Source: Nodosilinea sp. FACHB-141
GTDB lineage: Bacteria; Cyanobacteriota; Cyanobacteriia; Phormidesmidales; Phormidesmidaceae
Reading direction: 5' to 3'
DNA length: 64,000 bases
NCBI RefSeq assembly: GCF_014696135.1
Contig: NZ_JACJPP010000012.1
Span: forward strand, 124,001 to 188,000
Below, one piece after another: positions 3,220-53,943 of the stretch. How positions within the stretch are numbered: the first letter of the stretch is position 1; every line of letters starts with the position of its first letter. A program made the position numbers and the translations under genes. A model generated the notes under the pieces. It was not told the DNA's origin, did no database searches, and saw only the letters and a program-made list of their open reading frames with translations.

Positions 3220-4665
3220 TTAAAGGCGAATGTCAGGGCCAATTAAGTCAGAGAGCTTTTCTACGTCGTAGAGCAGCATCGCAATGCGCTCTAGACCGAG
3301 GCCCCAGGCCACGGTGGCTTTTTCGCCGCAGCCCAAGGGAGCGAGCATTTCTTGGCGGAATAGGCCCGAATTGCCGACTTCGATGTAGCGATCGCTCGGC
3401 GGGTGATAGGCAAACACCTCCAGCGACGGCTCCGTATAGGGGTTATAGGTCGGCTTAAACTTCAGATCCTTAAACCCCAATCGTTCGTAAAAATAGGTCA
3501 GGTAGCCCATCAACGTGCGCACGCTGAGCAGTTCACCCACCACCACGCCTTCGATCTGGTGGAACTCGGCTAGGTGCGTGCGATCGACGGTTTCGTTGCG
3601 AAAGACGCGATCGATGGAGAAGTATTTGCCGTCTTTGCCCTGGAGCTGGTGCAGGCGGCGAGCGGTAGAGGTCGTGGTGTGAGCCCGCAGAATGGCGCGG
3701 CTGGCTTCGGCCTCGGTCCAGTGGCCGCCGTAGTTGGCTTCGTGCACCTGTTTGACTCGCTGCACTAGGGCTGGGTCATCGGGCAGGGGTAGGGTCTGGG
3801 GGTTGGCCAGATAAAACGTGTCCTGCACCTCGCGGGCTGGGTGGTCTTGGGGGGTAAACAGGGCGTCAAAATTCCAAAAGGCCGACTCCACCATGTAGCC
3901 CGACATCTCGTCGAAGCCCATGTTTAAGAAGATGTCGCGGATGCGCTGAATGCACTGGGTGAGAATGGTGGGTCGTCCATAGGCGACATTGGGCACCTCG
4001 GCGTGAATGTCGTAGGGCTTGAGGTCGGCCTGCCGCCACTGGCCCGACAAAATTAGCTCGCTAGTCAGGGTCGTCACCACATCCCCCAGGTCCAGGGTTT
4101 GCAGGGCCGGGAGCACGGTGAGGCTGTAGTCGGTCTCGACCCGGCTGGCGATGTAACCCTGCTGCTGGAGCCATTCCAGCGAGGACGCTGCGCTGGCATC
4201 TAAAACCTTGCCCGCTGCGATCGCCTCAAACACTCCCTGCCGCTGCTGGTAGGCACCTAACACCGACGACTTCAGCACGGCTACAGTCCCTTCACCATTG
4301 CCATCAATCAAATCGACGGCCTGCTCGCGCCGCAGGGCACCGTAGTTGAGGCTAAAGGCAGGGCCGAGCTCAGCCTGGAGCTGGGCGCGATCACACTGGC
4401 CAGCCAGCAGCCGATCCGCCAGCAGAGACCCCGGCAGCACGCCGGCCAAATCCTCTCCTCTGGCCGTCAGCGCCCAGGTTTGCTGGCTGTGCTCCTGCCA
4501 CTGCACGTAGCCATTTAAAGCCCCGCTGAGCAAAAAACCATTGATAAAGTTGAAGTCGAACCCGGCCTGGGCACAGAGCGATCGCAGACTCGCCACCGTT
4601 TGCTGCTGCTGCAACAGGTCGATAAACTGCCGCTGTTTGCCAGTGAGCTGAAGCAGGTCGAGCAT
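3220..4665 (-). CDS. pheS: Phenylalanyl-tRNA synthetase alpha subunit, archaeal/eukaryotic type
   Basis: Charges tRNA-Phe with phenylalanine as an (alpha-beta)2 enzyme. At 481 aa it is about 150 residues longer than the usual cyanobacterial PheS (about 330 aa). The N-terminal ~200 residues look like winged-helix repeats, as in archaeal and eukaryotic alpha subunits. Motif 2 reads RAHTTTSTARRL and KYFSIDRVFRNE, then HLAEFHQIEGVV, FKPTYNPYTEPSLEVF, EVGNSGLFRQEML and WGLGLERIAML. These match the type 2 (archaeal/eukaryotic) subfamily, not the bacterial one (RTHTSPVQIR, EVLGCGMV). An in-frame TTG lies six bases upstream of the chosen ATG. No pheT is in the window. The gene stands alone between the kinase pair and a divergent membrane-protein gene. 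Confidence 0.93.
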   Translation of the reverse strand: MLDLLQLTGKQRQFIDLLQQQQTVASLRSLCAQAGFDFNFINGFLLSGALNGYVQWQEHSQQTWALTARGEDLAGVLPGSLLADRLLAGQCDRAQLQAELGPAFSLNYGALRREQAVDLIDGNGEGTVAVLKSSVLGAYQQRQGVFEAIAAGKVLDASAASSLEWLQQQGYIASRVETDYSLTVLPALQTLDLGDVVTTLTSELILSGQWRQADLKPYDIHAEVPNVAYGRPTILTQCIQRIRDIFLNMGFDEMSGYMVESAFWNFDALFTPQDHPAREVQDTFYLANPQTLPLPDDPALVQRVKQVHEANYGGHWTEAEASRAILRAHTTTSTARRLHQLQGKDGKYFSIDRVFRNETVDRTHLAEFHQIEGVVVGELLSVRTLMGYLTYFYERLGFKDLKFKPTYNPYTEPSLEVFAYHPPSDRYIEVGNSGLFRQEMLAPLGCGEKATVAWGLGLERIAMLLYDVEKLSDLIGPDIRL

Positions 4666-4775
4666 AGCCAAGGTTTAGAAAATCTCTATCAGCCTATCAA
4701 TCTTCCCCCATTCCCAAGGGCCAACATTGATGAAAAGATAGACACCACTGCCCGGATGCAAGGGATTTTCCTACT

Positions 4776-5228
4776 ATGTCTGACGAGCCTACTCTGCCCT
4801 CCGGTCCCGGTTTCGGCTTTACGTTTCTGTATTACTTTTCTGGCACTGCCCTAGTTACAGCCCTACTGGCGGTCAACTCTCTCGGTATTGGTTTAGACAC
4901 TGGCTTGCCCAACCTATACGGCACCCTATTTGGCACGGCGGGCGGCCTCTTAGGTGCTTTCGTTAACCGCAGCACCACATTGACCCTGCCCATCAACAGC
5001 CGCAAAACCTTCAAGCGGGAGCTAGATGCTGCCCTAGCTGAAATGGGCTACACCGAAGATGCCGAAGCCAACCTAGAGGGCATCTTGGTCTACCGCCGTC
5101 CCTTTGTGCGCCAGCTACTTTCAGGCCGCGTCTACGTACTGCTGGGTGAAAAGCAGGCTCAAATCAGCACCCGAGCCGTGCACATGGGCGGCATCAAAAA
5201 ACGCCTCGAAGCCAGCGGTATACGATAG
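4776..5228 (+). CDS. Conserved cyanobacterial membrane protein, function unknown
   Basis: Protein of 150 aa that I do not recognise by name. Two hydrophobic segments (about 13-35 and 43-62, the second Gly-rich, GTLFGTAGGLLGAFVN) form a probable membrane hairpin. A soluble C-terminal half follows (about 75-150) with KTFKRELDAALAEMGY, VYRRPFVRQLLSGRVYV and a basic end. The ATG at 4776 follows a short leader divergent from pheS. The compact hairpin plus alpha/beta tail recalls small cyanobacterial complex-assembly proteins, but nothing decisive is visible. Confidence 0.7.
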   Translation: MSDEPTLPSGPGFGFTFLYYFSGTALVTALLAVNSLGIGLDTGLPNLYGTLFGTAGGLLGAFVNRSTTLTLPINSRKTFKRELDAALAEMGYTEDAEANLEGILVYRRPFVRQLLSGRVYVLLGEKQAQISTRAVHMGGIKKRLEASGIR

Positions 5229-5712: not shown

Positions 5713-6039
5713 ATGTGGCACGTGGTTTACATTATTGCGTTTGCGGTTCTGGCGATCATGGCGATCGCCAACCTGGTCAGAAACTTGATTTTGCTTGGCG
5801 GTAACGCCCGCAATCCCCAATCGCCCAGAACCTACGGCAGCCAGCAGAACGCTTCAGGCGATCGCCCCATGCCCCACCCAGAGCTGCTTGACCAAGACGG
5901 CCAGGTAATTCGCGAACCGCTGCTGGTCATGCGATCCATTTCGGTAAAAGATGCCCGTGACCAACTCGACGCCCTCTACAACGGCACTGGCAGCCCCCTC
6001 GATGAGCCAGAAGATAGCGGTTCTGAGTCTGAGCGTTAG
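5713..6039 (+). CDS. DUF2973-like single-pass membrane protein
   Basis: Protein of 108 aa: one N-terminal membrane helix (MWHVVYIIAFAVLAIMAIAN, about residues 3-30), then a polar, Pro/Asn-rich linker and an acidic C-terminus (DEPEDSGSESER). The helix sequence and the short HPELLDQDGQVI segment fit the cyanobacterial DUF2973 family, whose function is unknown. A strong terminator follows 31 nt after the stop. Confidence 0.72.
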   Translation: MWHVVYIIAFAVLAIMAIANLVRNLILLGGNARNPQSPRTYGSQQNASGDRPMPHPELLDQDGQVIREPLLVMRSISVKDARDQLDALYNGTGSPLDEPEDSGSESER

Positions 6040-6070
6040 ACGCCACTCGTTAACCAACTTCCTTGAAACT

Positions 6071-6110
6071 AAAAAGGCTGGGTTCTGTTTTAAGAGAACC
6101 CAGCCTTTTT
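6071..6110. terminator. Bidirectional intrinsic terminator
   Basis: Near-perfect inverted repeat AAAAAGGCTGGGTTCT / AGAACCCAGCCTTTTT with a short loop, A-tract on one side and T-tract on the other. It serves the DUF2973 gene on the plus strand and the convergent DCC-family gene on the minus strand. Confidence 0.93.
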
Positions 6111-6155
6111 GATATCTGCTTGTGTTGGCTGGGGAGACTGGAGATCGGCACTGCT

Positions 6156-6674
6156 CTAAATGCGGCAGCGATTGGCAAGGGATTCGTCAACCGACCCAGA
6201 AGTAGAATCAGTTTCTGGATTGCCGCAGCCCTCGGCTAGACGGGCTTCACGCTCGGCCAAAATCGTCTTGAGACTGGGCCTGCCGGTAATCGCTAGACGC
6301 CAGTTAGCCCACAGACCGTAGACCCAATCGACCAGCGGGCCAAGGATGGGCCAGCGGGTAGGCGCGTAGATCCAGCCAATACCTAGAACTGCGTAGACTT
6401 GGCGAAACACATCCACATTCTGAATCACGGTGCCGTCGGCCTTCACAGCGTGGATGCGACCCATGGCCGTGGCAAAATCGATACCGCCGTTGTCTGCGGG
6501 GTTGTAGTCGTCAGCCGCAATATCGGTAAAGGCGATCAGCCCACGGCCGTTGTCTTGCTTGCGCAAAAAATTGACTTCCCGCAGACATAGGGGACAGTCG
6601 CCATCATAGAGCAGCTTAATTTTCCAGGCGATCGCATGGGGTGTTTGGGCAGAAGGTGCAGCGGCAGTCGTCAT
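6156..6674 (-). CDS. DCC-family (DUF393) thiol-oxidoreductase-like protein
   Basis: Protein of 172 aa with the family signature near its start: LLYDGDCPLCLREVNFL, a CxxC pair in a thioredoxin-like setting. GGIDFATAMGRIHAV and VFRQVYAVLGIGW then follow, with hydrophobic segments around WPILGPLVDWVYGLWANWR. Family members are called predicted thiol-disulfide oxidoreductases; the substrate is not known. The C-terminal ~35 residues after the core are acidic and Ser-rich and appear lineage-specific. It ends convergently against the DUF2973 gene and shares that gene's terminator. Confidence 0.88.
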   Translation of the reverse strand: MTTAAAPSAQTPHAIAWKIKLLYDGDCPLCLREVNFLRKQDNGRGLIAFTDIAADDYNPADNGGIDFATAMGRIHAVKADGTVIQNVDVFRQVYAVLGIGWIYAPTRWPILGPLVDWVYGLWANWRLAITGRPSLKTILAEREARLAEGCGNPETDSTSGSVDESLANRCRI

Positions 6675-6797
6675 AGAAATATGAGGCCAAGACAGTGCAA
6701 GGAAAAATTATTCCCTACACATATCTTAACAACCTCGACCTTGGTCTGCTGCGAGAACCATTAGATTTCGCGATTTAGACGGCTAAACGTCGCTAGT

Positions 6798-7724
6798 CTA
6801 AAGCACCCGAGCTTTTAGCAGGGTGCTGGGCAAGGTGAGCAGCTTGCGCAGAGAAGGCACGTAGGCCCGCTGAGTAAACACGTCGTAGCCGTTTTTTTCA
6901 ATCACGTCCAAAATCTGACGGTAGAGGGCCAGAGCAGCCCACACGGGCCAGCGAGCGTCTTCACTTAGCAGCCCAATGCCGCTCTCTGCTTCGGCATAAA
7001 ACCGACGGGCGCGATCGATCTGAAAGGCCATGAGGGCACGCCAGCGCTCGTCTACAACACCAGCGACCAGGTCAGCTTCGGTGTAGTCAAAGGCGGCCAG
7101 ATCTTTTAGGGGTAGGTAAATGCGGCCTCGGCGAGCGTCTTCGCCCACGTCGCGCAGAATGTTGGTGAGCTGGTTGGCAATGCCTAGGGCGATCGCCTGG
7201 GGAGTGGGGTCGAGCTGCTGTTGCTGGCTCCAGGGAGCGGTTTGCAGTTGGGTATCAATGCCCATCACTGTGGTCGACATCAACCCTACGGTGCCGGCTA
7301 CGCGGTAGCAGTACAGCTCTAAGTCTTCGAAAGTGTCGTAGCGATTGCGGTGCAAATCCATCCGCTGGCCCGCGATCATGTCGCGAAAGGGCTGAATGTC
7401 GAGGGGGAACTGCTCCAAGGTATCTACCAGGGCGACATCCTCGTCATCCACTGGGCAGCCGGCAAAAATTGACTCTAGCTGCGACTCCCACCGATCCAAC
7501 GTCTTTTCGCTGGTGAACTGCGCCTGCGGCCCGTCCACGAGTTCATCGGTGCGGCGACACCAGACGTAAATAGCCCAGATGGCGCGCCGCTTGGCAGGGG
7601 CCATCAGCATGGTGCCGGTGTAAAACGTCTTGGAATATTTCGCCGTGACGCGTCGGCACACCTCGTAGGCATCCTCAACGGAGGATAGGGATTGGATGGG
7701 GGGAGAATCCGTCAGTTGCAGCAT
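6798..7724 (-). CDS. crtB: Phytoene synthase
   Basis: Condenses two geranylgeranyl diphosphates to phytoene, the first step of carotenoid synthesis. Both Asp-rich, Mg-binding motifs are present: RRTDELVDG near residue 65 and NILRDVGEDARRGRIYLP near residue 185. The chosen ATG gives MLQLTDSPPIQ and 308 aa, the usual length; an open frame continues 16 codons upstream without a better start. In many cyanobacteria crtB follows the phytoene desaturase gene crtP in an operon. Here no crtP is present on either side, so the pathway genes are split. Confidence 0.96.
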   Translation of the reverse strand: MLQLTDSPPIQSLSSVEDAYEVCRRVTAKYSKTFYTGTMLMAPAKRRAIWAIYVWCRRTDELVDGPQAQFTSEKTLDRWESQLESIFAGCPVDDEDVALVDTLEQFPLDIQPFRDMIAGQRMDLHRNRYDTFEDLELYCYRVAGTVGLMSTTVMGIDTQLQTAPWSQQQQLDPTPQAIALGIANQLTNILRDVGEDARRGRIYLPLKDLAAFDYTEADLVAGVVDERWRALMAFQIDRARRFYAEAESGIGLLSEDARWPVWAALALYRQILDVIEKNGYDVFTQRAYVPSLRKLLTLPSTLLKARVL

Positions 7725-8181
7725 TAATGACCCAAACCTGGAGAATATAAATCTCAAACCGACTACAGGCAATTCTGCTTAACCTAGCCTCTCACAACTG
7801 CACCCAACTTTGGCAAAACAGTTGAAATCGGCCCATTCCCCGAAGCAACCCTGCCTCTGCCGTTCCTAAAGATTATATGTTGCAATCCGTAACATTTGTC
7901 CGCAAATTCCAAATGCGTGCTCTCTATTCCCAGCGTATTCAGGGCTGACTACCCATTTGAAGGCCATCCAGATAAGATAATAGACTGCGTATTAAACTGC
8001 TTGATGCCAAATCCCCGCTGTGGGTTCTCTGCGCTCCACCATGGACTGAGCCTCGCGAAGCGATTCCTGCGGGAGTTGCAGGGCAGCAAGCAGCACCGCT
8101 TTGGGGGAAGGCGCTCTATCGGCTACCCGTTAACGGTCCCCTTTGTCTGTCTAGTTCTGTCGATTGTTGGGAGCCTTGCCC
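7725..8181. other. Divergent spacer between crtB and glyA
   Basis: No convincing gene. An in-frame stretch on the plus strand (from 7896) has no Shine-Dalgarno sequence and no family resemblance. The spacer must hold both divergent promoters. The part from about 8040 to 8130 is GC-rich with self-complementary pieces (for example CTCGCGAAGCG...) and could be leader RNA of glyA. I do not see a glycine riboswitch core. Confidence 0.5.
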
Positions 8182-9465
8182 GTGCCTCAAACTAACTTTG
8201 ATTTTCTGCAAGAGTCCGATCCGCTGCTGGCCAGCATTATTCAGCGCGAGCTACAACGCCAGCGCGACCACCTCGAGCTCATCGCCAGCGAGAACTTTAC
8301 CTCGTCTGCGGTGCTAGCGGCCCAGGGATCGGTATTGACCAATAAGTATGCCGAAGGGCTGCCCGGCAAGCGCTACTACGGTGGCTGCGCCTTTGTGGAT
8401 GAGGCCGAGCAGTTGGCGATCGATCGCGCCAAAGAACTCTTCGGTGCCGCCCACGCCAACGTGCAGCCCCACTCTGGAGCCCAGGCCAACTTTGCCGTGT
8501 TTCTGGCCCTGCTTCAGCCCGGCGACACCATCCTGGGCATGGATCTCTCCCACGGCGGGCACCTGACCCACGGCTCGCCCGTGAACGTGTCGGGCAAGTG
8601 GTTTAATGTCGTTCAGTACGGCGTTGGCCGCGAGACCGAACAACTCGACTTTGACCAGATCCGTGAGCTGGCTCTAGAGCACCGACCCAAGCTGATCATC
8701 TGCGGCTATTCGGCCTACCCCCGCGTGATCGATTTTGAGAAGTTTCGCGCGATCGCCGACGAAGTTGGTGCTTACCTGATGGCCGACATCGCCCACATCG
8801 CTGGATTGGTGGCTGCCGGTTATCACCCCAACCCCCTGCCCCACTGTGACGTGGTGACGACCACCACCCACAAAACCCTGCGCGGCCCTCGCGGTGGCCT
8901 GATATTGGCCCGTGATGCCGAACTGGGCAAAAAGTTTGATAAGGCCGTGTTCCCCGGTAGCCAGGGCGGGCCATTGGAGCACGTGATTGCGGCTAAGGCG
9001 GTGGCCTTTGGCGAAGCTCTCAAACCCGAGTTTCGGGCCTATGCTGCTCAAGTGATCGCCAATGCCCAGCGCATGGCGGCTCAGCTCCAGCAGCGGGGCA
9101 TCAAGGTAGTGTCTGACGGTACCGACAACCACTTGGTACTGGTCGATCTGCGCTCTATCGGCATGACCGGCAAGCGCGCCGATCAGCTGGTGAGTGAGGT
9201 CAACATCACCGCTAACAAAAACACTGTGCCCTACGACCCCGAGTCGCCCTTTGTCACCAGCGGCCTGCGCCTGGGTTCTCCGGCGATGACCACCCGCGGC
9301 ATGGGCGAGGCTGAGTTCACTGAGATCGCCAACATCATCGCCGATCGCCTGCTCAATCCCGAAGATGCGGCGATCGCTGAGCACTGCAAGCGTCGGGTGG
9401 CGGCCTTGTGCGATCGCTTCCCCCTCTATACCCACTTAGGCGGGCTAGTTCCAGCTCTGGTCTAA
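8182..9465 (+). CDS. glyA: Serine hydroxymethyltransferase
   Basis: Interconverts serine and glycine, passing one-carbon units to tetrahydrofolate; in cyanobacteria it also serves the photorespiratory pathway. The PLP Lys is in [13 protein letters not shown], and [22 protein letters not shown] and [11 protein letters not shown] are family hallmarks. The start is taken as GTG 8182 ([10 protein letters not shown]) because GGGAG lies 8 nt upstream and the 427-aa length is normal. Two TTG codons upstream in frame are less likely. A long nested inverted repeat follows the stop. Confidence 0.97.
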
Positions 9466-47064: not shown

Positions 47065-47078
47065 GTAACAGCGGTTAC
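47065..47078 (+). promoter_or_regulatory. NtcA-binding site
   Basis: GTA-ACAGCGGT-TAC is a perfect GTAN8TAC NtcA site. It lies about 100 nt upstream of the guanidine-I aptamer, with A/T-rich -10-like sequence (TAAGCCTATTAG) 22 nt after it, the usual class II spacing. It would put the cluster under global nitrogen control. The site also lies in the divergent space of the Npun_F0494-like gene. Confidence 0.72.
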
Positions 47079-47164
47079 TTTCTAATGGTTGAGCAATTGC
47101 TAAGCCTATTAGTGCATCAACCGTTGACTTAAGTCACCAGTCACTCAACTAGTTTTAATAGCCA

Positions 47165-47345
47165 AACGGTTTCTAGGGTTCCGGCTTGCCGCCGCTGCGG
47201 TGGAGCGTCTGGTCCGAGAGAAACCGCCAGATAAGTTACTGGCCTCGCTTCAACAGCAGGGCTCACGGCCTCTGGTACACGGCGGGATAAAAGCCCGGGA
47301 GGATAGCGAAGCATTGCTTGGCCATTCTCTCGGGCTGTTGTGTTT
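47165..47345 (+). ncRNA. Guanidine-I (ykkC) riboswitch with terminator platform
   Basis: The conserved ykkC pieces occur in order: CTAGGGTTCCGG (47173-47184), CTGGTCCGAGAG (47209-47220), ACACGGCGGGATAAAAG and then CCCGGGAG (47277-47300). The 3' strand of the aptamer, AGCCCGGGAGGAT, can instead pair over 13 bp (two G-U) with ATTCTCTCGGGCT (47324-47336), followed by a U-rich run. That is a terminator exclusive with the aptamer, so guanidine should turn expression on. It lies about 65 nt before the first gene. Confidence 0.93.
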
Positions 47346-47409
47346 CATGACGGTTTGCCTCCTGTAGCACCTATTCATTACCCATCCGCCCATTTACCCC
47401 TACCCACCT

Positions 47410-48771
47410 ATGGCCCACCCGCTAACTCCTGAAATCGAAGCGCTGAAATCCTCTTTGGAGCATAAAGGTGTCAAGTACGCCCTGGCCAGCTATGTGGATA
47501 TCCACGGCATGGGCAAGGCCAAAATGGTGCCTCTGGCTCACTTGGGCCAAATGATGGCGGGTTCAGAGCTGTTTACCGGCGCGGCCCTCGATGGGGTGCC
47601 CCAGGAGATTAGCGATGAGGAAGTGGCGGCGATGCCCGACCCGGCCTCGGCCACGGTGCTGCCCTGGAAGCCCGAAGTCGCCTGGTTTGCCAGCGATCTC
47701 TACCTCAAGGGACAACCCTTTGAGGCCTGCTGCCGCACCATTCTCAAGCAAATGCTGGCCAAGGCAGCGGCGATGGGGTTTACCTTTAACCTGGGCATCG
47801 AGACCGAGTTTTTCATGCTCAAGGAAAACGCTGACGGTAGCTTTGGGCCGGTGAGCGATCGCGACCACCTTGCCAAACCCTGCTACGACCTACCCAGCCT
47901 GCTCGACAACGCCCCCTGGCTGAGCGAACTGGTGGAATACATGAACCAGCTCGGTTGGGATGTCTATTCCTTTGACCACGAAGACGCCAACGGCCAGTTT
48001 GAGACCGACTTTGCCTACAGCGACGCCCTGACCATGGCCGATCGCCTCACCTTCTTTCGGCTGATGGTGAAGGAGATCGCCCGCAAATACGGCTATTTCG
48101 CCAGCTTTATGCCCAAGCCCTTCGGCGATCGCACCGGTAGCGGCGCCCACTACAACATGTCTTTGGCCGATATCCAGACCGGGCAAAACCTGTTTGAAGA
48201 CCCGGACGACCCACGCGGCTGCAAGCTCTCTAAGCTGGGCTACCAGTTTATTGCTGGGGTGCTGCGCCACGCCAAGGCGATCTGCGCCGTCACCTGCCCC
48301 ACGGTCAACAGCTACAAGCGGCTGCTGCGCCAGGGCAGCATGTCGGGCTTTACCTGGGCCCCGGTTTACATCTGCTACGGCAACAACAACCGCACCAACA
48401 TGCTGCGCATTCCCCTGGCGGGAGGCCGGGTCGAGTGCCGCGCTGCCGATATTGCCACCAACCCGTATCTGGGGGCCGCAATGATTCTCGCCGCCGGGCT
48501 AGAGGGCATTGCTGAGGGGATTGATCCCGGTGACCCCCACACCGAAAACATGTACAACTACTCCCTAGCTGACCTGCAGGCGATGGGCATCGACATGCTG
48601 CCTCGCACGCTGCAAGAGGCGATCGACGCCTTTGAGGCCGACTCGCTCAGCCAGGCCGTGATGGGGCCGCTGATGTACCAGACCTACATTGATTTTCGCC
48701 GTCGGGAATGGGAGGAGTACCACACCCACATTTCTGACTGGGAAATTAAGCGGTATCTCAAGTTTTTCTAG
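47410..48771 (+). CDS. Type III glutamine synthetase-like gamma-glutamylamide ligase
   Basis: Protein of 453 aa of the GlnT/GmaS class. VDIHGMGKAKMVP at the start, then the beta-grasp, then the catalytic barrel: LGIETEFFML, SFDHEDANGQFETDF, FMPKPFGDRTGSGAHYNMS, CPTVNSYKRL and NNRTNMLRIPLAGGRVECRA. Class members include gamma-glutamylmethylamide synthetase, so ATP-dependent transfer of glutamate to an amine other than ammonia is likely. Being the first gene under a guanidine-I riboswitch, the acceptor may be guanidine or a methylated guanidine (inference). The leader just before the ATG is C-rich with no Shine-Dalgarno sequence. Confidence 0.9.
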   Translation: MAHPLTPEIEALKSSLEHKGVKYALASYVDIHGMGKAKMVPLAHLGQMMAGSELFTGAALDGVPQEISDEEVAAMPDPASATVLPWKPEVAWFASDLYLKGQPFEACCRTILKQMLAKAAAMGFTFNLGIETEFFMLKENADGSFGPVSDRDHLAKPCYDLPSLLDNAPWLSELVEYMNQLGWDVYSFDHEDANGQFETDFAYSDALTMADRLTFFRLMVKEIARKYGYFASFMPKPFGDRTGSGAHYNMSLADIQTGQNLFEDPDDPRGCKLSKLGYQFIAGVLRHAKAICAVTCPTVNSYKRLLRQGSMSGFTWAPVYICYGNNNRTNMLRIPLAGGRVECRAADIATNPYLGAAMILAAGLEGIAEGIDPGDPHTENMYNYSLADLQAMGIDMLPRTLQEAIDAFEADSLSQAVMGPLMYQTYIDFRRREWEEYHTHISDWEIKRYLKFF

Positions 48772-48848
48772 CGCTCGCCCCTCGCTCCAGGGTGTCCCAA
48801 ACACCCACAGCTTTCCCTGTAGTTTTTGAGTCTCAAACATCCACCGCC

Positions 48849-49892
48849 ATGAAACGACGTACCTTTTTACCCACGCTGTTTGCCTTTTTTTGCAGCCTGC
48901 TGATTACCGTTAGCTGTGCTCAAAACGCGCCCCAGGCCGATGCCCCCGCCGATGCCCCTGCGACTGCTACAGCGGGGGAACCCATAAAGCTCGGCTACAG
49001 CAGCTGGGCGGGCTGGTGGCCCTGGGCGATCGCCGAAGAAGAGGGCCTATTCGAAAAGAATGGGGCCAACGTCGAGCTGATCTGGTTTGACGGCTACCTA
49101 GAATCAATTCAATCCCTAGCCGCCGGGCAGCTCGATGCCAACAGCCAAACCCTCAACGACACCATCTCCTTCGCAGGGGATGCCGTCAACGGCATGGTGG
49201 CGGTGTTGGTCAACGACAACTCTGCCGGTAACGACAAGGTGATTGGGGCTGAGGGCATCGACACCGTCGCCGATCTGGCTGGCAAAACCGTTGCCCTAGA
49301 AGAGGGCGTAGTGGGTGACTTTTTGCTCAGCCTGGCCCTCGAAGATGCTGGCCTAACCCGCGACGCTGTAGAAATTAAAAATCTTGAAACCGGGGCTGCG
49401 GCCACGGCCTTTGCTGCCGAGCAGGTAGATGGCTTTGCGGGTTGGGTACCCTTCTGGGAAACGGCGCTTTCGCGCGAAGGCAGCAAAGAGCTGGCGAGCT
49501 CGGCAGATTTCCCAGGCGCGATTCCTGACCTGCTGGTAGTGACCCAAAAGCTGATCGACAGCCGCCCCGACCAGGTGCAAGCCTTGGTGAATACCTGGTT
49601 CGACATTTTGGCCTTTATTGAGGAAAACCCTGAGCGGGCCAACGAGATTATGGCAAAGCGAGCCAGCGTCAGCGACACCGAGTTTGAGAAGTATACCGAG
49701 GGCACCAAAATCTTCACCCTAGACGAAAACTTAGAAGCCTTTAGCGCAGGCGGTGATGACATGAAGTACATGCCCTACGCCTCTCAGAAAATGGCCGAAT
49801 TCATGGTGGAGCTTAAGTTTATCCCCGAGGCCCCCGACCTAGAGGCTATTCTCGATGACCAATTTATTAAGGCCTATACCGCCAAGAAGTAG
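48849..49892 (+). CDS. Guanidine-type (NitT/TauT-like) ABC binding lipoprotein
   Basis: Protein of 347 aa with a lipoprotein signal (MKRRTFLPTLFAFF, lipobox ITVSC with Cys23). The mature part has the NitT/TauT-family fold: IKLGYSSWAGWWPWAIAEEE, LESIQSLAAGQLDANSQTL, LAGKTVALEEGVV and a WVPFWE segment. Trp-rich pocket residues (SSWAGWWPW) would suit a planar cation. It is the binding component of the importer encoded by the next genes. The guanidine link comes from the riboswitch, not from the protein itself. Confidence 0.9.
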   Translation: MKRRTFLPTLFAFFCSLLITVSCAQNAPQADAPADAPATATAGEPIKLGYSSWAGWWPWAIAEEEGLFEKNGANVELIWFDGYLESIQSLAAGQLDANSQTLNDTISFAGDAVNGMVAVLVNDNSAGNDKVIGAEGIDTVADLAGKTVALEEGVVGDFLLSLALEDAGLTRDAVEIKNLETGAAATAFAAEQVDGFAGWVPFWETALSREGSKELASSADFPGAIPDLLVVTQKLIDSRPDQVQALVNTWFDILAFIEENPERANEIMAKRASVSDTEFEKYTEGTKIFTLDENLEAFSAGGDDMKYMPYASQKMAEFMVELKFIPEAPDLEAILDDQFIKAYTAKK

Positions 49893-49898
49893 CCGTTG

Positions 49899-50819
49899 AT
49901 GCAAGCCCCGATCGCCGTTCTGTGGATGATGGGGGCTAATGCTTTTCAGGTTTGTTGTACGTTTGGGCTAACCCCTGTGACTCCCGCTTCCCCTTCCTTT
50001 TCCACCGCGTCCACCGCCCCCCAAGGCATGAAGCCTAGTGTCTTTTGGCGACTGGCCGACGACATTCCCAAACCGATGAGCACGGCGCTGATGGTGCTCT
50101 CCATTGCGGTGCCCTTTGCTCTGTGGTGGATAGTGGCTAGCCTGGATCTGGTGAATGACAAGTTTTTGCCGTCGCCGATTCAGGTGGCTCAAGCGCTAGG
50201 GCGGCTGTGGACGGATGGCTTTCTGCTGGAAGATACCGCCGCCAGCATTATGCGGGTGACTGTGGGCTTTTTGCTGGCAGCGCTGGTGTCGATCCCCATC
50301 GGCATTGCCATGGGAGCCTTTGCTAGCGTGCGATCGCTGCTCGAACCCATTGTTGGCGTGGTGCGCTATATGCCCGCCCCCGCCTTCATTCCGCTGCTGC
50401 TGATCTATCTGGGCCTGGGCGAAGCACCCAAAATCGCCCTGATCTTTATGGGCACCGTGTTCTTCAACATCCTGATGATCATGGATGCGGTGAAGTTTGT
50501 GCCCAAGGCCCTGCTCGAAACCACCTACACCCTAGGCGGGCAGCGGCGGCAGGCGCTGTTTCAGGTGATTACGCCCTACGTGGTGCCCAACATTATCGAC
50601 ACCTTTCGCATCAACATTGCCACCTCCTGGAACCTGGTGGTAGTGGCGGAGCTGGTGGCGGCAGAAAACGGCCTGGGCAAACGGATTGTGCTGGCCCAAA
50701 AGTTTTTCAACACCGATGAAATCTTTGCCTGCCTGATCATTCTGGGCGTAATCGGCTTTGCCCTAGATTTGTCATTGCGAGGGTTGATGAAAGCCACTTG
50801 TAAATGGGCGATAGATTGA
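49899..50819 (+). CDS. ABC transporter permease of the guanidine cluster
   Basis: About 306 aa, six helices, SsuC/TauC class. The coupling loop is present (TTYTLGGQRRQALFQVITPY), as is ATSWNLVVVAELVAAENGLG. The frame starts close to the binding-protein gene; an internal ATG at 50028 (MKPSVFWRLADD) is the likely functional start because the preceding ~40 residues look unrelated to the family. The ATPase gene follows after a 249-bp spacer filled with repeats. Confidence 0.9.
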   Translation: MQAPIAVLWMMGANAFQVCCTFGLTPVTPASPSFSTASTAPQGMKPSVFWRLADDIPKPMSTALMVLSIAVPFALWWIVASLDLVNDKFLPSPIQVAQALGRLWTDGFLLEDTAASIMRVTVGFLLAALVSIPIGIAMGAFASVRSLLEPIVGVVRYMPAPAFIPLLLIYLGLGEAPKIALIFMGTVFFNILMIMDAVKFVPKALLETTYTLGGQRRQALFQVITPYVVPNIIDTFRINIATSWNLVVVAELVAAENGLGKRIVLAQKFFNTDEIFACLIILGVIGFALDLSLRGLMKATCKWAID

Positions 50820-50904
50820 GCGCTGGTGTTCCCTCAGCTTGTGAGGTGCGCGATCGCTCAGATAGATCCCCTCAAATTCTCACGTTCTAAGATTCACTCC
50901 GTAA

Positions 50905-51068
50905 CCCCCTTAAAAAGGGGCAAGGGGGATCTAACCAGGGTTATCCCACCCTCTCTATTCATCCTGAATCCGACTCAATCTAGCTTTGGTGGGCAGTGCC
51001 CACCCTACGGCATACCCATCCACCCTCCTCCCCATCCACTCATCCACCCCCTACCCCCACTCCCCACC
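50905..51068. repeat. Three stacked intergenic repeats inside the guanidine operon
   Basis: In order: a CCCCCTTAAAAAGGGG palindrome with a GGGGGATCT tail (50905-50932), the perfect palindrome GGTGGGCA-G-TGCCCACC (50989-51005), and a C-rich degenerate run of CCATCCACCC units (about 51013-51067) that reaches the ATG of the ATPase gene. The first is a commonly dispersed cyanobacterial repeat; the second and third recur at 53.1 kb. Confidence 0.85.
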
Positions 51069-51842
51069 ATGCACTTAGAAATCAACAACCTCAGCAAACA
51101 GTTCGACACCCGCCAAGGGCCAGTGCTGGCGCTCGATGACATCAACATGCACGTGGAAACGGGCGAATTTGTCTGCGTGGTAGGGGCCTCAGGCTCCGGA
51201 AAATCTACCCTGCTGCGGCTGGTGGCAGGGCTAGATATGCCCACGGCGGGGGAAATGACGGTGGATGGTCAAGTGGTGACGGGGCCAGGATCTGATCGCG
51301 GCATGATCTTCCAGAGCTACACCCTGTACCCCTGGATGTCGGTGCAGAAAAATGTCGAATTTGGCCTCAAGCTTCAGGGCGTGGGACCACGGGAGCGGCG
51401 GGAGATGGCTTCCTACTATCTAGACGTGGTGGGGCTGACTAAGTTTGCGCGATCGCTGCCCAAGCAGCTTTCTGGCGGCATGAAGCAGCGGGTGGCGATC
51501 GCCCGCACCCTGGCCTCCCGGCCCAAAATTATGCTGATGGATGAGCCTTTTGGCGCGCTAGATGTGCAGACCAAGGAAACCATGCAGCAGTTTATGCTCG
51601 ACCTGTGGAACCGCACCGGGGTGAGCATTTTGATGATTACTCACGATGTTGATGAGGCGGTGTTTCTCTCCCAGCGAATCTACGTGCTGACGGCGCACCC
51701 CGGCACCATTCAGCGGGAGGTGTTTGTGGATTTGCCCAGCGATCGCACCTACACCATTCGCCGCGATCGCGCTTTTCAAGACTACCGCGAAGGCATTATG
51801 GATCTGCTGCGGGGAAAGACGACGCCAGCCTTAGTGAGCTGA
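51069..51842 (+). CDS. ABC transporter ATPase of the guanidine cluster
   Basis: Protein of 257 aa of the NitT/TauT ATPase class: Walker A VVGASGSGKSTLL, Q-loop FQSYTLYPWM, signature LSGGMKQRVAIARTL, Walker B IMLMDEPFGALD and H-loop MITHDVDEAV. The start MHLEINNLSKQFD is fixed by the family; the open frame upstream runs through the repeats and is not coding. Confidence 0.95.
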   Translation: MHLEINNLSKQFDTRQGPVLALDDINMHVETGEFVCVVGASGSGKSTLLRLVAGLDMPTAGEMTVDGQVVTGPGSDRGMIFQSYTLYPWMSVQKNVEFGLKLQGVGPRERREMASYYLDVVGLTKFARSLPKQLSGGMKQRVAIARTLASRPKIMLMDEPFGALDVQTKETMQQFMLDLWNRTGVSILMITHDVDEAVFLSQRIYVLTAHPGTIQREVFVDLPSDRTYTIRRDRAFQDYREGIMDLLRGKTTPALVS

Positions 51843-51858
51843 TGGGGAGTGAACGCTG

Positions 51859-53010
51859 ATGGTTTCCAGTCTGCCGCTGCAATGGTCGAAGACCGGCCCC
51901 CAAGGGTCCTCACCGGTTCCTCCCGACGTTCACGGGCTGCCAGAACAATTTTTACTCACCGCTGACCACTACACCAATCCTGAATGGATTCCGATAGAGC
52001 AGCGGGCGATCTTTCGTCGCACTTGGCTCTACGCGGGCGATGGCGATCGCCTTCAGTCAGGCATGGTGTGGGCCAAGTCGGTGGCGGGCGCTCCCCTGCT
52101 GCTCGTTCGAGACAACGATGGCGAGCTACGGGCCTTTTACAACCTCTGTCCCCACCGGGCCGCAATTTTGTCGCCCCAAGCGGGCATTCACCCCTGTCAA
52201 AAGCTGGTCTGCCCCTACCACGCTTGGGTGTATGACCTTTCTGGAGATTTGGTGGGTGTGCCCTCCCAAAATCAGTTTCCGGAGTCGTTTGAGAAGCAGA
52301 ATTTCCCCCTGCGATCGCTGCGGCTAGAGACCTGGTCGGGCTTTATGTTTGTCTGCTTCGACGACAGTGCGCCGCCGCTAGTCGAGTTTCTCGGCAGCAT
52401 CCCCGAGCACCTAGGGCAGCACCGCACCCCCGCCACCCAACCCCTGGCGGCCAAGCAATACACCGTCGCCTGCAACTGGAAGAACTACCACGACAACACC
52501 CTGTGCGACTACCACGTGGCGATCGCCCACCGCACCACCCTAAACCAAGTGCAAGGCCCCATTCGCCGCTACCAGCACCAGCTCGAAGCCTTCGTTAACC
52601 TGCTCTACACACCCACTACTGCCGACTGGCAGGCCGAAAACCCTATTTCACCGGCCCTCCAGGGCCGCAGCCGCGAGGGATTTTTTACCTACGGCATTTA
52701 CCCTAACCTGCACCTGCTAGGGCTACCCAACGGTCTGTTAGCCTGGCTGCACATTGAGCCGCTCACCGTCGAGTCTTGCCAAGTTTCCCTAGACCTCTAC
52801 GGCGACCCCGCATTTTGTCCACCCACCGAAACCCTGCTAGCCGAATTTGAAGCCTTCATGCAGGAAGACATGGTGCTCACCGAAAGTGTCCAGCAGGGCT
52901 ACGCCAGCGGTGCCTACACCCCCGGCCCGGTGAACGGTTTAGAATCACGAATTATCCACCAGCAAAAACTGATTTGGGACGCCCTTGCCGCCGTTGGTGG
53001 TACCGAATAA
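51859..53010 (+). CDS. Rieske non-haem iron oxygenase, choline/carnitine monooxygenase-like
   Basis: Protein of 383 aa. The Rieske cluster ligands are C97-x-H99 (NLCPHRA) and C118-xx-H121 (VCPYHAW). The mononuclear iron His pair is in NYHDNTLCDYHVAIAH (H219, H224), and a third carboxylate is likely in QEDMVLTESVQQG. The domain layout is that of choline, carnitine and glycine-betaine monooxygenases, which oxidise N-methyl or C-N bonds. The bridging Asp sits one residue closer to the first His than in naphthalene-dioxygenase-type enzymes. No reductase gene is in the cluster. It lies 17 nt after the ATPase gene. Substrate by context: a guanidine compound or its glutamyl adduct (inference). Confidence 0.9.
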   Translation: MVSSLPLQWSKTGPQGSSPVPPDVHGLPEQFLLTADHYTNPEWIPIEQRAIFRRTWLYAGDGDRLQSGMVWAKSVAGAPLLLVRDNDGELRAFYNLCPHRAAILSPQAGIHPCQKLVCPYHAWVYDLSGDLVGVPSQNQFPESFEKQNFPLRSLRLETWSGFMFVCFDDSAPPLVEFLGSIPEHLGQHRTPATQPLAAKQYTVACNWKNYHDNTLCDYHVAIAHRTTLNQVQGPIRRYQHQLEAFVNLLYTPTTADWQAENPISPALQGRSREGFFTYGIYPNLHLLGLPNGLLAWLHIEPLTVESCQVSLDLYGDPAFCPPTETLLAEFEAFMQEDMVLTESVQQGYASGAYTPGPVNGLESRIIHQQKLIWDALAAVGGTE

Positions 53011-53086
53011 CAGCACGGCTTGAGCGCGGGCAAACCACCGTTCCCCCCTCGCGGAACCCTAGTTGTATAGCGCTAGGGTTAACGCT

Positions 53087-53157
53087 GGTGGGGCACTGCC
53101 CACCCTACCCATCCACCCTCCCACCCATCCACCCGCCTACCCTCCCACCCCCTCCCC
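53087..53157. repeat. Palindrome plus C-rich tandem units before the last cluster gene
   Basis: GGTGGGGCA-CTGCCCACC (53087-53104), then CTACCCATCCACCCTCCC-type units up to the ATG at 53158. The same pair of elements precedes the ATPase gene at 50.99-51.07 kb. There is no Shine-Dalgarno sequence between the units and the start codon. Confidence 0.85.
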
Positions 53158-53943
53158 ATGCCCTCCAACCCTTTCCTCGGCGTCTGGCAACGCCGCTCCA
53201 TCCAGTTCGACCAAGGCCCCATCGAAACCAGCCAATCGGTCCTGTGGATTCAAGCCGAAACCTACTTTGCCGATGTGCGCAGTGCTCCCTTTGCAGGACG
53301 GTTGACGCCAGAGCGGTATCGGGCGATGGATTGGCGATCGCGCTTTGACGCCGACCTGCTGGGCTTTGCCGGCACCTTTAGCTGGACTGAGTCCCCCCCG
53401 ATCTGTACCTGGCACCATCGCCTTGCCCTTACCCCACGGCAGTGGCCCGACACCAGCAACTATCACTGGCTGGGGCCAGACGATTTTTTAGAGCATGGCA
53501 CCTGTGAGGATGATGAGGGCGGTCTCCACCCTTTTGTTGAGCACTGGTATCGCCTTCACCCTGGCCCTGTGCAGGTGTGGCGTCTAGAACGGTCAGATCA
53601 GCAGGGGCAGGCCCTCCGGGTGGGCAACTGGGCCGTTTTGGTGCATCAGTGGCGTTCGCGCAGCGTCTCCAGTGGAGAATTGCAGAGCGTCTCCACTAGA
53701 GAATCGCAAAGTGTCTCCAGCGGAGAGTCGCCCACCGCTGACTCTTCGCTGGAGGCAGAGAACTTTCGCGCGTTTTCTGCCACTGCCTGGGAGTATCGGC
53801 AGGGCACCTGGCAGGCTCTGTTTGGCACTGAGGCCAGCCTGGGCACCCCACCCCACTGGACACCGCTGGATTTGGATGACCCGCTTGGTCTGTGGCAGCT
53901 AGAGCGATCGGCCCCAGTGAGCCAGAGCCTAGAGCTTAACTAA
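53158..53943 (+). CDS. Unknown protein ending the guanidine cluster, probable beta-barrel
   Basis: Protein of 261 aa of no family I can name with confidence. The pattern of short beta strands with WQRRSIQF, SVLWIQAETYFADVR and a second half with VQVWRLER and WAVLVHQWRS suggests two lipocalin-like halves, comparable in outline to HRI1-type proteins. The residue run 169-192 is made of three 8-aa repeats (SVSSGELQ-like) created by a DNA repeat. No signal peptide. It could bind a small ligand or an intermediate of the pathway. Position alone links it to the Rieske gene. Confidence 0.7.
   Translation: MPSNPFLGVWQRRSIQFDQGPIETSQSVLWIQAETYFADVRSAPFAGRLTPERYRAMDWRSRFDADLLGFAGTFSWTESPPICTWHHRLALTPRQWPDTSNYHWLGPDDFLEHGTCEDDEGGLHPFVEHWYRLHPGPVQVWRLERSDQQGQALRVGNWAVLVHQWRSRSVSSGELQSVSTRESQSVSSGESPTADSSLEAENFRAFSATAWEYRQGTWQALFGTEASLGTPPHWTPLDLDDPLGLWQLERSAPVSQSLELN
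53662..53733 (+). repeat. Three 24-bp tandem repeats inside a coding region
   Basis: Three units each begin AGCGTCTCC or AGTGTCTCC and hold a palindrome of the type TCTCCAGTGGAGA. They add in-frame SVSSGELQ, SVSTRESQ and SVSSGESP. The length (24 = 8 codons) keeps the frame open. Confidence 0.9.

Follow-up and report, generated by a model that had tools for sequence, protein, structure and literature searches.

Few guanidine-releasing enzymes have been described (PMC12508155), and a 2025 review considers the natural source of guanidine a major gap (PMC12186494). The closest described system to the locus studied here is an operon of Vreelandella boliviensis, published in 2025, in which mgdH and mgdL are found together with guanidine-I and guanidine-II riboswitches. 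Methylguanidine is first hydroxylated by MgdH, which is a 2-oxoglutarate (2-OG) dioxygenase, and the resulting N-(hydroxymethyl)guanidine is split by MgdL, for which a barrel model with catalytic Asp49 and Arg51 was presented (PMC12508155). Our analysis of a 64-kb window (the whole stretch of DNA that was analysed) from the 5.92 Mb, 99.98% complete genome of Nodosilinea sp. FACHB-141 did reveal a six-gene operon that resembles this system. Both have a guanidine-I riboswitch, an ABC importer, an oxygenase gene adjoining a gene for an MgdL-type protein, and guanidine degradation genes in the regulon. In Nodosilinea, however, a Rieske oxygenase stands in for MgdH and the guanidine hydrolase GdmH for guanidine carboxylase, a GmaS-like ligase is present in addition, and the regulon is split in two. 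On balance we lean towards the view that the operon is an accessory that imports guanidine and N-substituted guanidines and oxidatively dealkylates the latter, by the Rieske and MgdL-like proteins, to feed GdmH.

Cyanobacterial guanidine operons have been described as well. Like the Nodosilinea locus, the GdmH operon known from Synechocystis PCC 6803 and Syn-eCAG_001, a gene cluster of picocyanobacteria, combine a guanidine-I riboswitch with a similar type of importer (PMC12186494, PMC10119275). In Nodosilinea, gdmH-hypAB instead forms a riboswitch operon of its own, and a ligase and an MgdL-like gene are added. A Rieske gene downstream of the importer occurs in most Synechococcus and Cyanobium genomes with Syn-eCAG_001 and was read as a sign of iron use; the passage on Syn-eCAG_001 in that 2023 paper gives the Rieske protein no enzymatic role (PMC10119275).

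For comparison we used a sample of 242 genomes of the class (G-numbers denote genomes and L-numbers loci). Comparisons of guanidine-I riboswitches rest on 150 listed riboswitch places, out of at least that many in the class, and in the neighbour counts (within 8 kb) the riboswitches considered are limited to the same places. In the window, the guanidine-I (ykkC) aptamer lies at 47162..47303 on the plus strand and matches RF00442 over the full model (1-107) with 76.7 bits (gathering threshold 63, E 7e-12), being the sole match above gathering in the 64 kb. Upstream of it, at 47065..47078 on the plus strand, pattern and conservation identify the palindrome GTAACAGCGGTTAC of the form GTAN8TAC, which we take to be the NtcA motif. 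An earlier interpretation based on the DNA alone, hereafter the sequence-only reading, had placed both elements ahead of six co-directional genes, and this was borne out, the palindrome being kept at the same place in 6/6 genus members of the sample. The window holds 6 such patterns against 4.96 expected, which is not significant, so that by the pattern alone chance is possible. It is unlikely given the comparative count: GTAN8TAC occurs at most 300 nt upstream of 88 of the 150 listed cyanobacterial guanidine-I riboswitches, whereas 200 shuffles gave 11.65 on average and never more than 21. These were mononucleotide shuffles that lose the dinucleotide content, and divergent riboswitches can share one site. 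This suggests that guanidine use may widely be under NtcA control. Within the genus the site marks the importer/ligase operon, and none of the gdmH riboswitches (0/6) is among the matches at that distance. A predicted intrinsic-terminator hairpin (47291..47346, plus strand) overlaps the aptamer at its 3' end. When 47162-47360 was folded (z -3.54 for the entire segment), the arm AGCCCGGGAG was predicted to pair with CTCTCGGGCT, followed by a T-rich run, and both arms are found in 6/6 genus members. Since the aptamer 3' end doubles as an arm of this conserved predicted terminator, the hairpin, as the expression platform, fits a transcriptional ON switch, which is what we infer.

The six genes, all on the plus strand, have an identical order in all 6 genus members. 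The first encodes a GmaS-like glutamyl-amine ligase ('type III glutamine synthetase') of a guanidine-associated clade (47410..48771; TIGR03105) and is followed by the substrate-binding protein (SsuA/NMT1 type, 48849..49892; TIGR01728, 270.5 bits), permease (50028..50819; PF00528) and ATPase (51069..51842; PF00005) of the ABC importer, the alpha subunit of the Rieske non-haem iron oxygenase (51859..53010; PF00355 and PF00848) and the MgdL-like protein, a homologue of N-(hydroxymethyl)guanidine lyase (53158..53943; by homology and the residues Asp39/Arg41). Binding-protein homologues from gdmH operons reach about 270-585 bits to the window protein. A plasmid search returned no P0003 homologue at E 0.01 and one Rieske match (33.6% over 57%) at E 1e-30 or better. 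By eye, similar spacers were seen at about 50985-51068 and 53080-53157, preceding the start codons of the ATPase and MgdL-like genes; both consist of a GGTGGG...TGCCCACCCTAC palindrome and then CATCCACCC repeats.

According to the sequence-only reading, neither a carboxylase nor a nickel hydrolase is present. This is correct for the six genes, among which no gdmH, no carboxylase and no 2-OG dioxygenase MgdH was found, but not for the genome. A second guanidine-I riboswitch (84.9 bits) on another contig of the same genome accompanies a gdmH-hypA-hypB operon (an arginase-family gene, hypA and hypB) at 6035-8708, minus strand, of G000:C7:126000-142000 (L003). Against the solved guanidine hydrolase of Synechocystis (7esr, 7oi1) the encoded GdmH scores 828 bits. 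Thr97 and Trp305, which have been named as specificity residues (PMC11410670), align provided that the chain is shifted by two residues. No importer genes were seen adjoining the gdmH operon in L003, and no listed GTAN8TAC lies within 300 nt of it. With the importer and accessories in the window and the hydrolase and nickel chaperones elsewhere, the guanidine regulon appears to be split, the window operon being one of its halves. The idea that it is the sole or an alternative degrader of guanidine is weakened by gdmH in the same genome.

The link to the Vreelandella pathway comes from the sixth gene, to which the sequence-only reading gave no name and whose product has a marginal match to PF16815/HRI1 (29.4 bits, cut-off 27). 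It was compared with the gene at the mgdL position of a related Vreelandella genome, in which the gene order is carboxylase-MgdH-MgdL and Asp49 and Arg51 are found at the exact positions; this MgdL was identified by position and residues, and the published sequence is not the one compared. The labels MgdL and MgdH at the Vreelandella locus, and carboxyguanidine deaminase, rest on position and not on family matches. The two proteins are 28% identical (pairwise E 4e-12), their comparison scores 29.1 bits where none of 2000 shuffles exceeded 10.5, and Asp49/Arg51 of MgdL correspond to Asp39/Arg41 of the window protein. Invariant columns among 10 sequences include W10, R12, Q32, D39, R41, W85, E112, E128 and W130, and the Asp/Arg pair is kept in every checked family member spanning the site. 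A structure model of the window protein, of modest confidence (mean pLDDT 66), shows a beta-barrel and so agrees with the published barrel model of MgdL; a structure search with the model gave many weak lipocalin-like matches, none at E 0.001 or better.

MgdL-like genes were found in 21/242 genomes, and a guanidine-I riboswitch or gdmH is present in 19 of the 21. In nine of the 21 (the six genus members, G150, G099 and G118) the gene adjoins a Rieske gene of the window type, as defined below, and this adjacency spans three families of genomes, with two different gene orders. The Rieske-adjoining MgdL-like gene of G150 (L088, about 4206-4932, minus strand) is broken by one in-frame stop (1 TGA). 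For the other 12 genomes, 11 were inspected within 1.5 kb (G013 was left out), and importer- or isochorismatase-type genes lie near the MgdL-like gene in four (G077, G083, G089, G216). The remaining neighbours, judged by eye, are without evident link, for example acetolactate-synthase-like, kinase-like and P450-like genes. In G033 and G072 (L382, L384) the MgdL-like match lies within a longer open frame of 497 residues, and the carboxylase operons of these two genomes end with another, more distant Rieske gene.

The Rieske protein carries both a Rieske domain (PF00355) and a ring-hydroxylase catalytic domain (PF00848). The ligand columns Cys97, His99, Cys118, His121, His219, His224 and Asp337 (CxH...CxxH and a 2-His-1-carboxylate triad) are kept in 27 sequences, which include partial ones and two from G118, save for gaps in partial sequences and the divergent L220, which is without the His pair. 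A Rieske domain combined with a catalytic domain that holds mononuclear iron ligands indicates that the protein is not a simple Fe-S carrier. Its nearest solved relative is carnitine monooxygenase CntA (112 bits) and its nearest named one GbcA (114.7 bits, far below the GbcA cut-off of 670 bits). Quaternary-amine monooxygenases of the CntA/GbcA type act on nitrogen-bound carbons. We defined window-type Rieske genes by a score of at least 166 bits, which holds for 26 of the 65 genomes matched at E 1e-25 (G010 via two pieces on different contigs). Left out as weaker were, among others, Rieske genes of 121-125 bits that end the riboswitch carboxylase operons of G013, G033 and G072, and the about 31% identical Rieske genes adjoining the ligase in G066, G077, G113 and G180. 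Outside the genus, the window-type genes have 36-59% identity to the window protein and so constitute a separate group. Of the 26 genes, 19 have a listed guanidine-I riboswitch or gdmH within 8 kb, and 25/26 of the genomes have a listed riboswitch and/or gdmH anywhere, compared with 142/242 overall.

The ligase matches TIGR03105 with 591 bits (cut-off 469.6), a family named 'type III glutamate--ammonia ligase' in NCBIfam. Its nearest solved relatives are glutamate--methylamine ligases (436 bits for 9qur and 346 for GmaS, 7cql), and glutamine synthetases (GS) reach 275 bits or less. Site positions of GmaS (PMC7948447) were mapped by eye from an alignment onto 40 clade sequences, which represent 39 of the 50 clade genes since G113 is counted twice via a second locus. 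Like GmaS, a member of the same family, the clade has lost the ammonium-site Asp50' and the Glu-flap Glu, replaced in 40/40 by Thr56 and Trp316, and has kept the equivalents of Asp177, Glu186, Arg312 and Lys30' (Asp189, Glu198, Arg328 and Lys38, also in 40/40). Unlike in the solved GmaS, which has Ala at Asp50', the clade has Thr there, and in the methylamine pocket Gln175 is changed to Ser187 and Asn188 to Asp200 (PMC7948447 for GmaS), again in 40/40. Cyanobacterial GS paralogues that span the pocket positions keep Gln and Asn (40/40); this other GS group (n=42) includes the fragments L073 and L210, the source of the gap counts. Given these residues, with Asp50' and the Glu-flap Glu absent, we rejected a true glutamine synthetase, and the preference of the sequence-only reading for a glutamyl-amine ligase over an ammonia enzyme was supported at this level. 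The ammonium-site losses together with the pocket changes suggest an amine substrate other than ammonia or methylamine. The ligase would accordingly glutamylate some amine or guanidino compound, but not ammonia and probably not methylamine.

Defined by at least 616 bits to the window protein, the ligase clade comprises 50 genes in 48/242 genomes. Listed guanidine-I riboswitches or gdmH lie within 8 kb of 27/50 genes; 45/48 of the genomes have either or both anywhere, compared with the same 142/242 overall, and 34/48 have GdmH. The expectation that ligase and Rieske oxygenase recur with guanidine genes in other genomes therefore held for both families.

Guanidine-I aptamers were found in 127/242 genomes, and at the 150 listed places the 7.5 kb of same-strand sequence that follows the riboswitch was surveyed. 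Here we found gdmH at 71 places, carboxylase or carboxyguanidine-deaminase-type genes without gdmH at 30, the ligase without gdmH or carboxylase-type genes at 13, only importer genes at 19, only a sodium:solute symporter at 8 and other genes at 6, with 3 too short to judge; the ligase is downstream of 18/150 in all. The carboxylase (urea carboxylase in NCBIfam) was taken as guanidine carboxylase because of the riboswitch. Several operons carry accessories of the window together with gdmH. The order gdmH-hypA-GS-hypB-importer is found in G012, G060, G189 and G203, and with two more open frames in G155, and gdmH-hypA-hypB-GS-importer-Rieske in G119. In G002 (L245) and G027 (L347), gdmH-hypA-GS-hypB-importer-Rieske in one operon makes up the whole set except the MgdL-like gene. 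In the stretches read, gdmH operons hold the ligase without a Rieske gene in G012, G060, G189 and G203 and a Rieske gene without the ligase in G055, G146 and G221, and window-type Rieske genes adjoin carboxylase operons in G049, G085, G096, G099 and G118. Because ligase and Rieske genes recur with both known guanidine pathways, they look like accessories of these rather than a replacement. The sequence-only reading had proposed an alternative route in place of the known ones, and this finds no support, given gdmH in the same genome and the ligase and Rieske genes inside gdmH operons or beside carboxylase operons in relatives. It had named the gene set without a riboswitch as evidence against itself, and this objection applies in part. 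Such sets do occur in G002 and G027, where no riboswitch was detected, but there gdmH is part of the same operon. A search for a riboswitch in L245, L347, L348 (a short contig), L237 and L250 gave no Rfam match at E 0.01 or better.

The best explanation for an oxygenase that adjoins an MgdL relative under a guanidine riboswitch, where the genome also encodes GdmH, is a system for the oxidative dealkylation of substituted guanidines to guanidine. Under nitrogen shortage, NtcA would activate transcription, and guanidine bound to the riboswitch would prevent formation of the terminator. The importer would take up guanidine and N-substituted guanidines, and the Rieske oxygenase, in the role of MgdH, would hydroxylate the carbon beside the guanidine nitrogen, with methylguanidine as the first candidate. 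The MgdL-like barrel protein would then break the hemiaminal into guanidine and an aldehyde. The freed guanidine would induce both riboswitch operons, and GdmH, matured by HypA/HypB, would hydrolyse it to urea and ammonia. Substrates, reaction order and regulation are thus a proposal built on the genes, residues and genomic associations described above. For the sequence-only reading this means that N-methylguanidines as a likely substrate class find support, whereas guanidine consumed by an alternative route does not. Its order of glutamylation first and oxidation second would give way to direct hydroxylation and fragmentation, to which the MgdL kinship of the sixth gene points. Overall, that interpretation was partly supported.

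Several observations weigh against the dealkylation proposal. In the Vreelandella system, no binding of methylguanidine to the class I riboswitch was observed over the range assayed (PMC12508155), so that induction would need guanidine first. Seven of the 26 window-type Rieske genes are not near listed elements (among these the gene of G099 adjoins carboxylase genes), and 17/26 showed no adjoining MgdL-like gene in the comparison, a few of them being at contig ends. The checked MgdL residues are kept family-wide, including in members in apparently unrelated surroundings, and family membership alone therefore does not fix the substrate; we rejected the residues as proof of it. A 2-OG dioxygenase that is 38% identical to the Vreelandella MgdH is encoded at G000:C11:534838-535710, outside both riboswitch contigs, and is a rival candidate within the genome; such MgdH-like genes are common (63/242 genomes at E 1e-30). 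The ligase has no firm role in the proposed scheme, and 23/50 ligase genes are not near listed elements, although those of G089 and G099 adjoin carboxylase genes and a few of the distant ligase or Rieske genes lie on short contigs. The activities ascribed to the Rieske, MgdL-like and ligase proteins are putative throughout, being read from their sequences. Finally, genomes within one lineage are not independent, so that the association counts overstate the evidence and the differing gene orders are the better argument.

A variant that would give the ligase a function is that it caps the amine of an agmatine-like alkylguanidine, that the Rieske oxygenase hydroxylates this compound at the carbon beside the guanidine nitrogen and that the MgdL-like lyase frees guanidine, which would then induce its own degradation. 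We consider this fairly unlikely. If true, it would be a glutamylation-assisted, Rieske-based release of guanidine and a dedicated bacterial source of it.

We think it unlikely, too, that the operon serves to clean up amines, with GdmH or a relative hydrolysing substituted guanidines to urea and an amine, the ligase capturing the amine as a gamma-glutamylamide synthetase and the Rieske protein acting on another substrate. Such a role would agree with the glutamate-methylamine ligases as nearest solved relatives, with the presence in 40/40 of the catalytic Asp, Glu and Arg of GmaS and with the repeated occurrence of the ligase inside gdmH operons. However, the two methylamine-pocket positions are changed in all clade sequences, while the paralogues keep the GmaS residues, and when the Nitrospira guanidinase was given guanidino compounds including methylguanidine, significant urea was formed only from guanidine and agmatine (PMC11410670).

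The third guanidine pathway implied by the sequence-only reading, in which guanidine or methylguanidine would be glutamylated by the ligase before the Rieske oxygenase attacks the product, as with aniline, appears improbable to us. In the aniline and 1-naphthylamine dioxygenase systems a GS-like glutamyl-amine ligase is indeed encoded with a Rieske oxygenase (PMC11335346). Pairs of ligase and Rieske genes also recur, including without an adjoining MgdL-like gene, and a guanidinium group might be accommodated by the altered pocket of the clade (Gln to Ser, Asn to Asp). Yet guanidine is a weak nucleophile, GdmH is encoded in the same genome and in most ligase genomes, and gdmH operons that hold one gene without the other indicate that neither needs the other as neighbour. 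Compared with the aniline and 1-naphthylamine systems, the six genes include no amidotransferase-like hydrolase, second oxygenase subunit or reductase and stand under guanidine riboswitch control. Very improbable is plain ammonia assimilation, in which a glutamine synthetase would take up ammonia from GdmH or urease and the Rieske protein would be an Fe-S accessory of the guanidinase: the NCBIfam name and the suggestion that the Fe-S protein of marine Synechococcus marks iron as cofactor (PMC10119275) would fit, but Thr56 and Trp316 are changes of the kind described for GmaS and the Rieske protein has a catalytic domain with mononuclear iron ligands.

If the dealkylation proposal is true, the Rieske and MgdL-like pair would be a second, non-homologous way from substituted guanidines to guanidine, and methylated or alkylated guanidines would be suggested as a cyanobacterial nitrogen source. 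Two gene families without known role gain a concrete enzymatic hypothesis, and the ligase clade with its altered amine pocket offers a handle on its substrate. In the literature excerpts examined, a Rieske gene with guanidine genes is mentioned only in PMC10119275, and there is no mention of the ligase clade, of cyanobacterial MgdL relatives and the MgdL link, of the ligase pocket changes, of the split regulon or of GTAN8TAC across the class; priority is not established for any of these.

The survey brought up further guanidine-I operons. In G025 (L092), G054 (L078), G040 (L099) and G006 (L076) they encode an importer, a metallo-beta-lactamase-type hydrolase, a creatininase-family protein and the ligase; such creatininase-type operons also have a permease and some an isochorismatase-type hydrolase, and they possibly serve creatinine- or creatine-like guanidino compounds. 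In L046 (G012), L058 (G121) and L055 (G166), for example, the riboswitch is followed directly by a gene for a sodium:solute symporter (PF00474). Such a symporter lies within 7.5 kb of 11/150 listed riboswitches and is a candidate for an alternative guanidine importer. In L100 (G007:C15) a riboswitch-led gdmH is broken by several stops (1 TGA, 2 TAG). Guanidine-I riboswitches also occur as divergent pairs separated by a few hundred bases, namely in L036 (G046, where one side is cut by the contig end), L038 (G115), L039 (G170), L062 (G217), L120 (G088) and L093 (G192). In five of these six pairs, one riboswitch faces importer genes or gdmH and its partner carboxylase-type or symporter genes.

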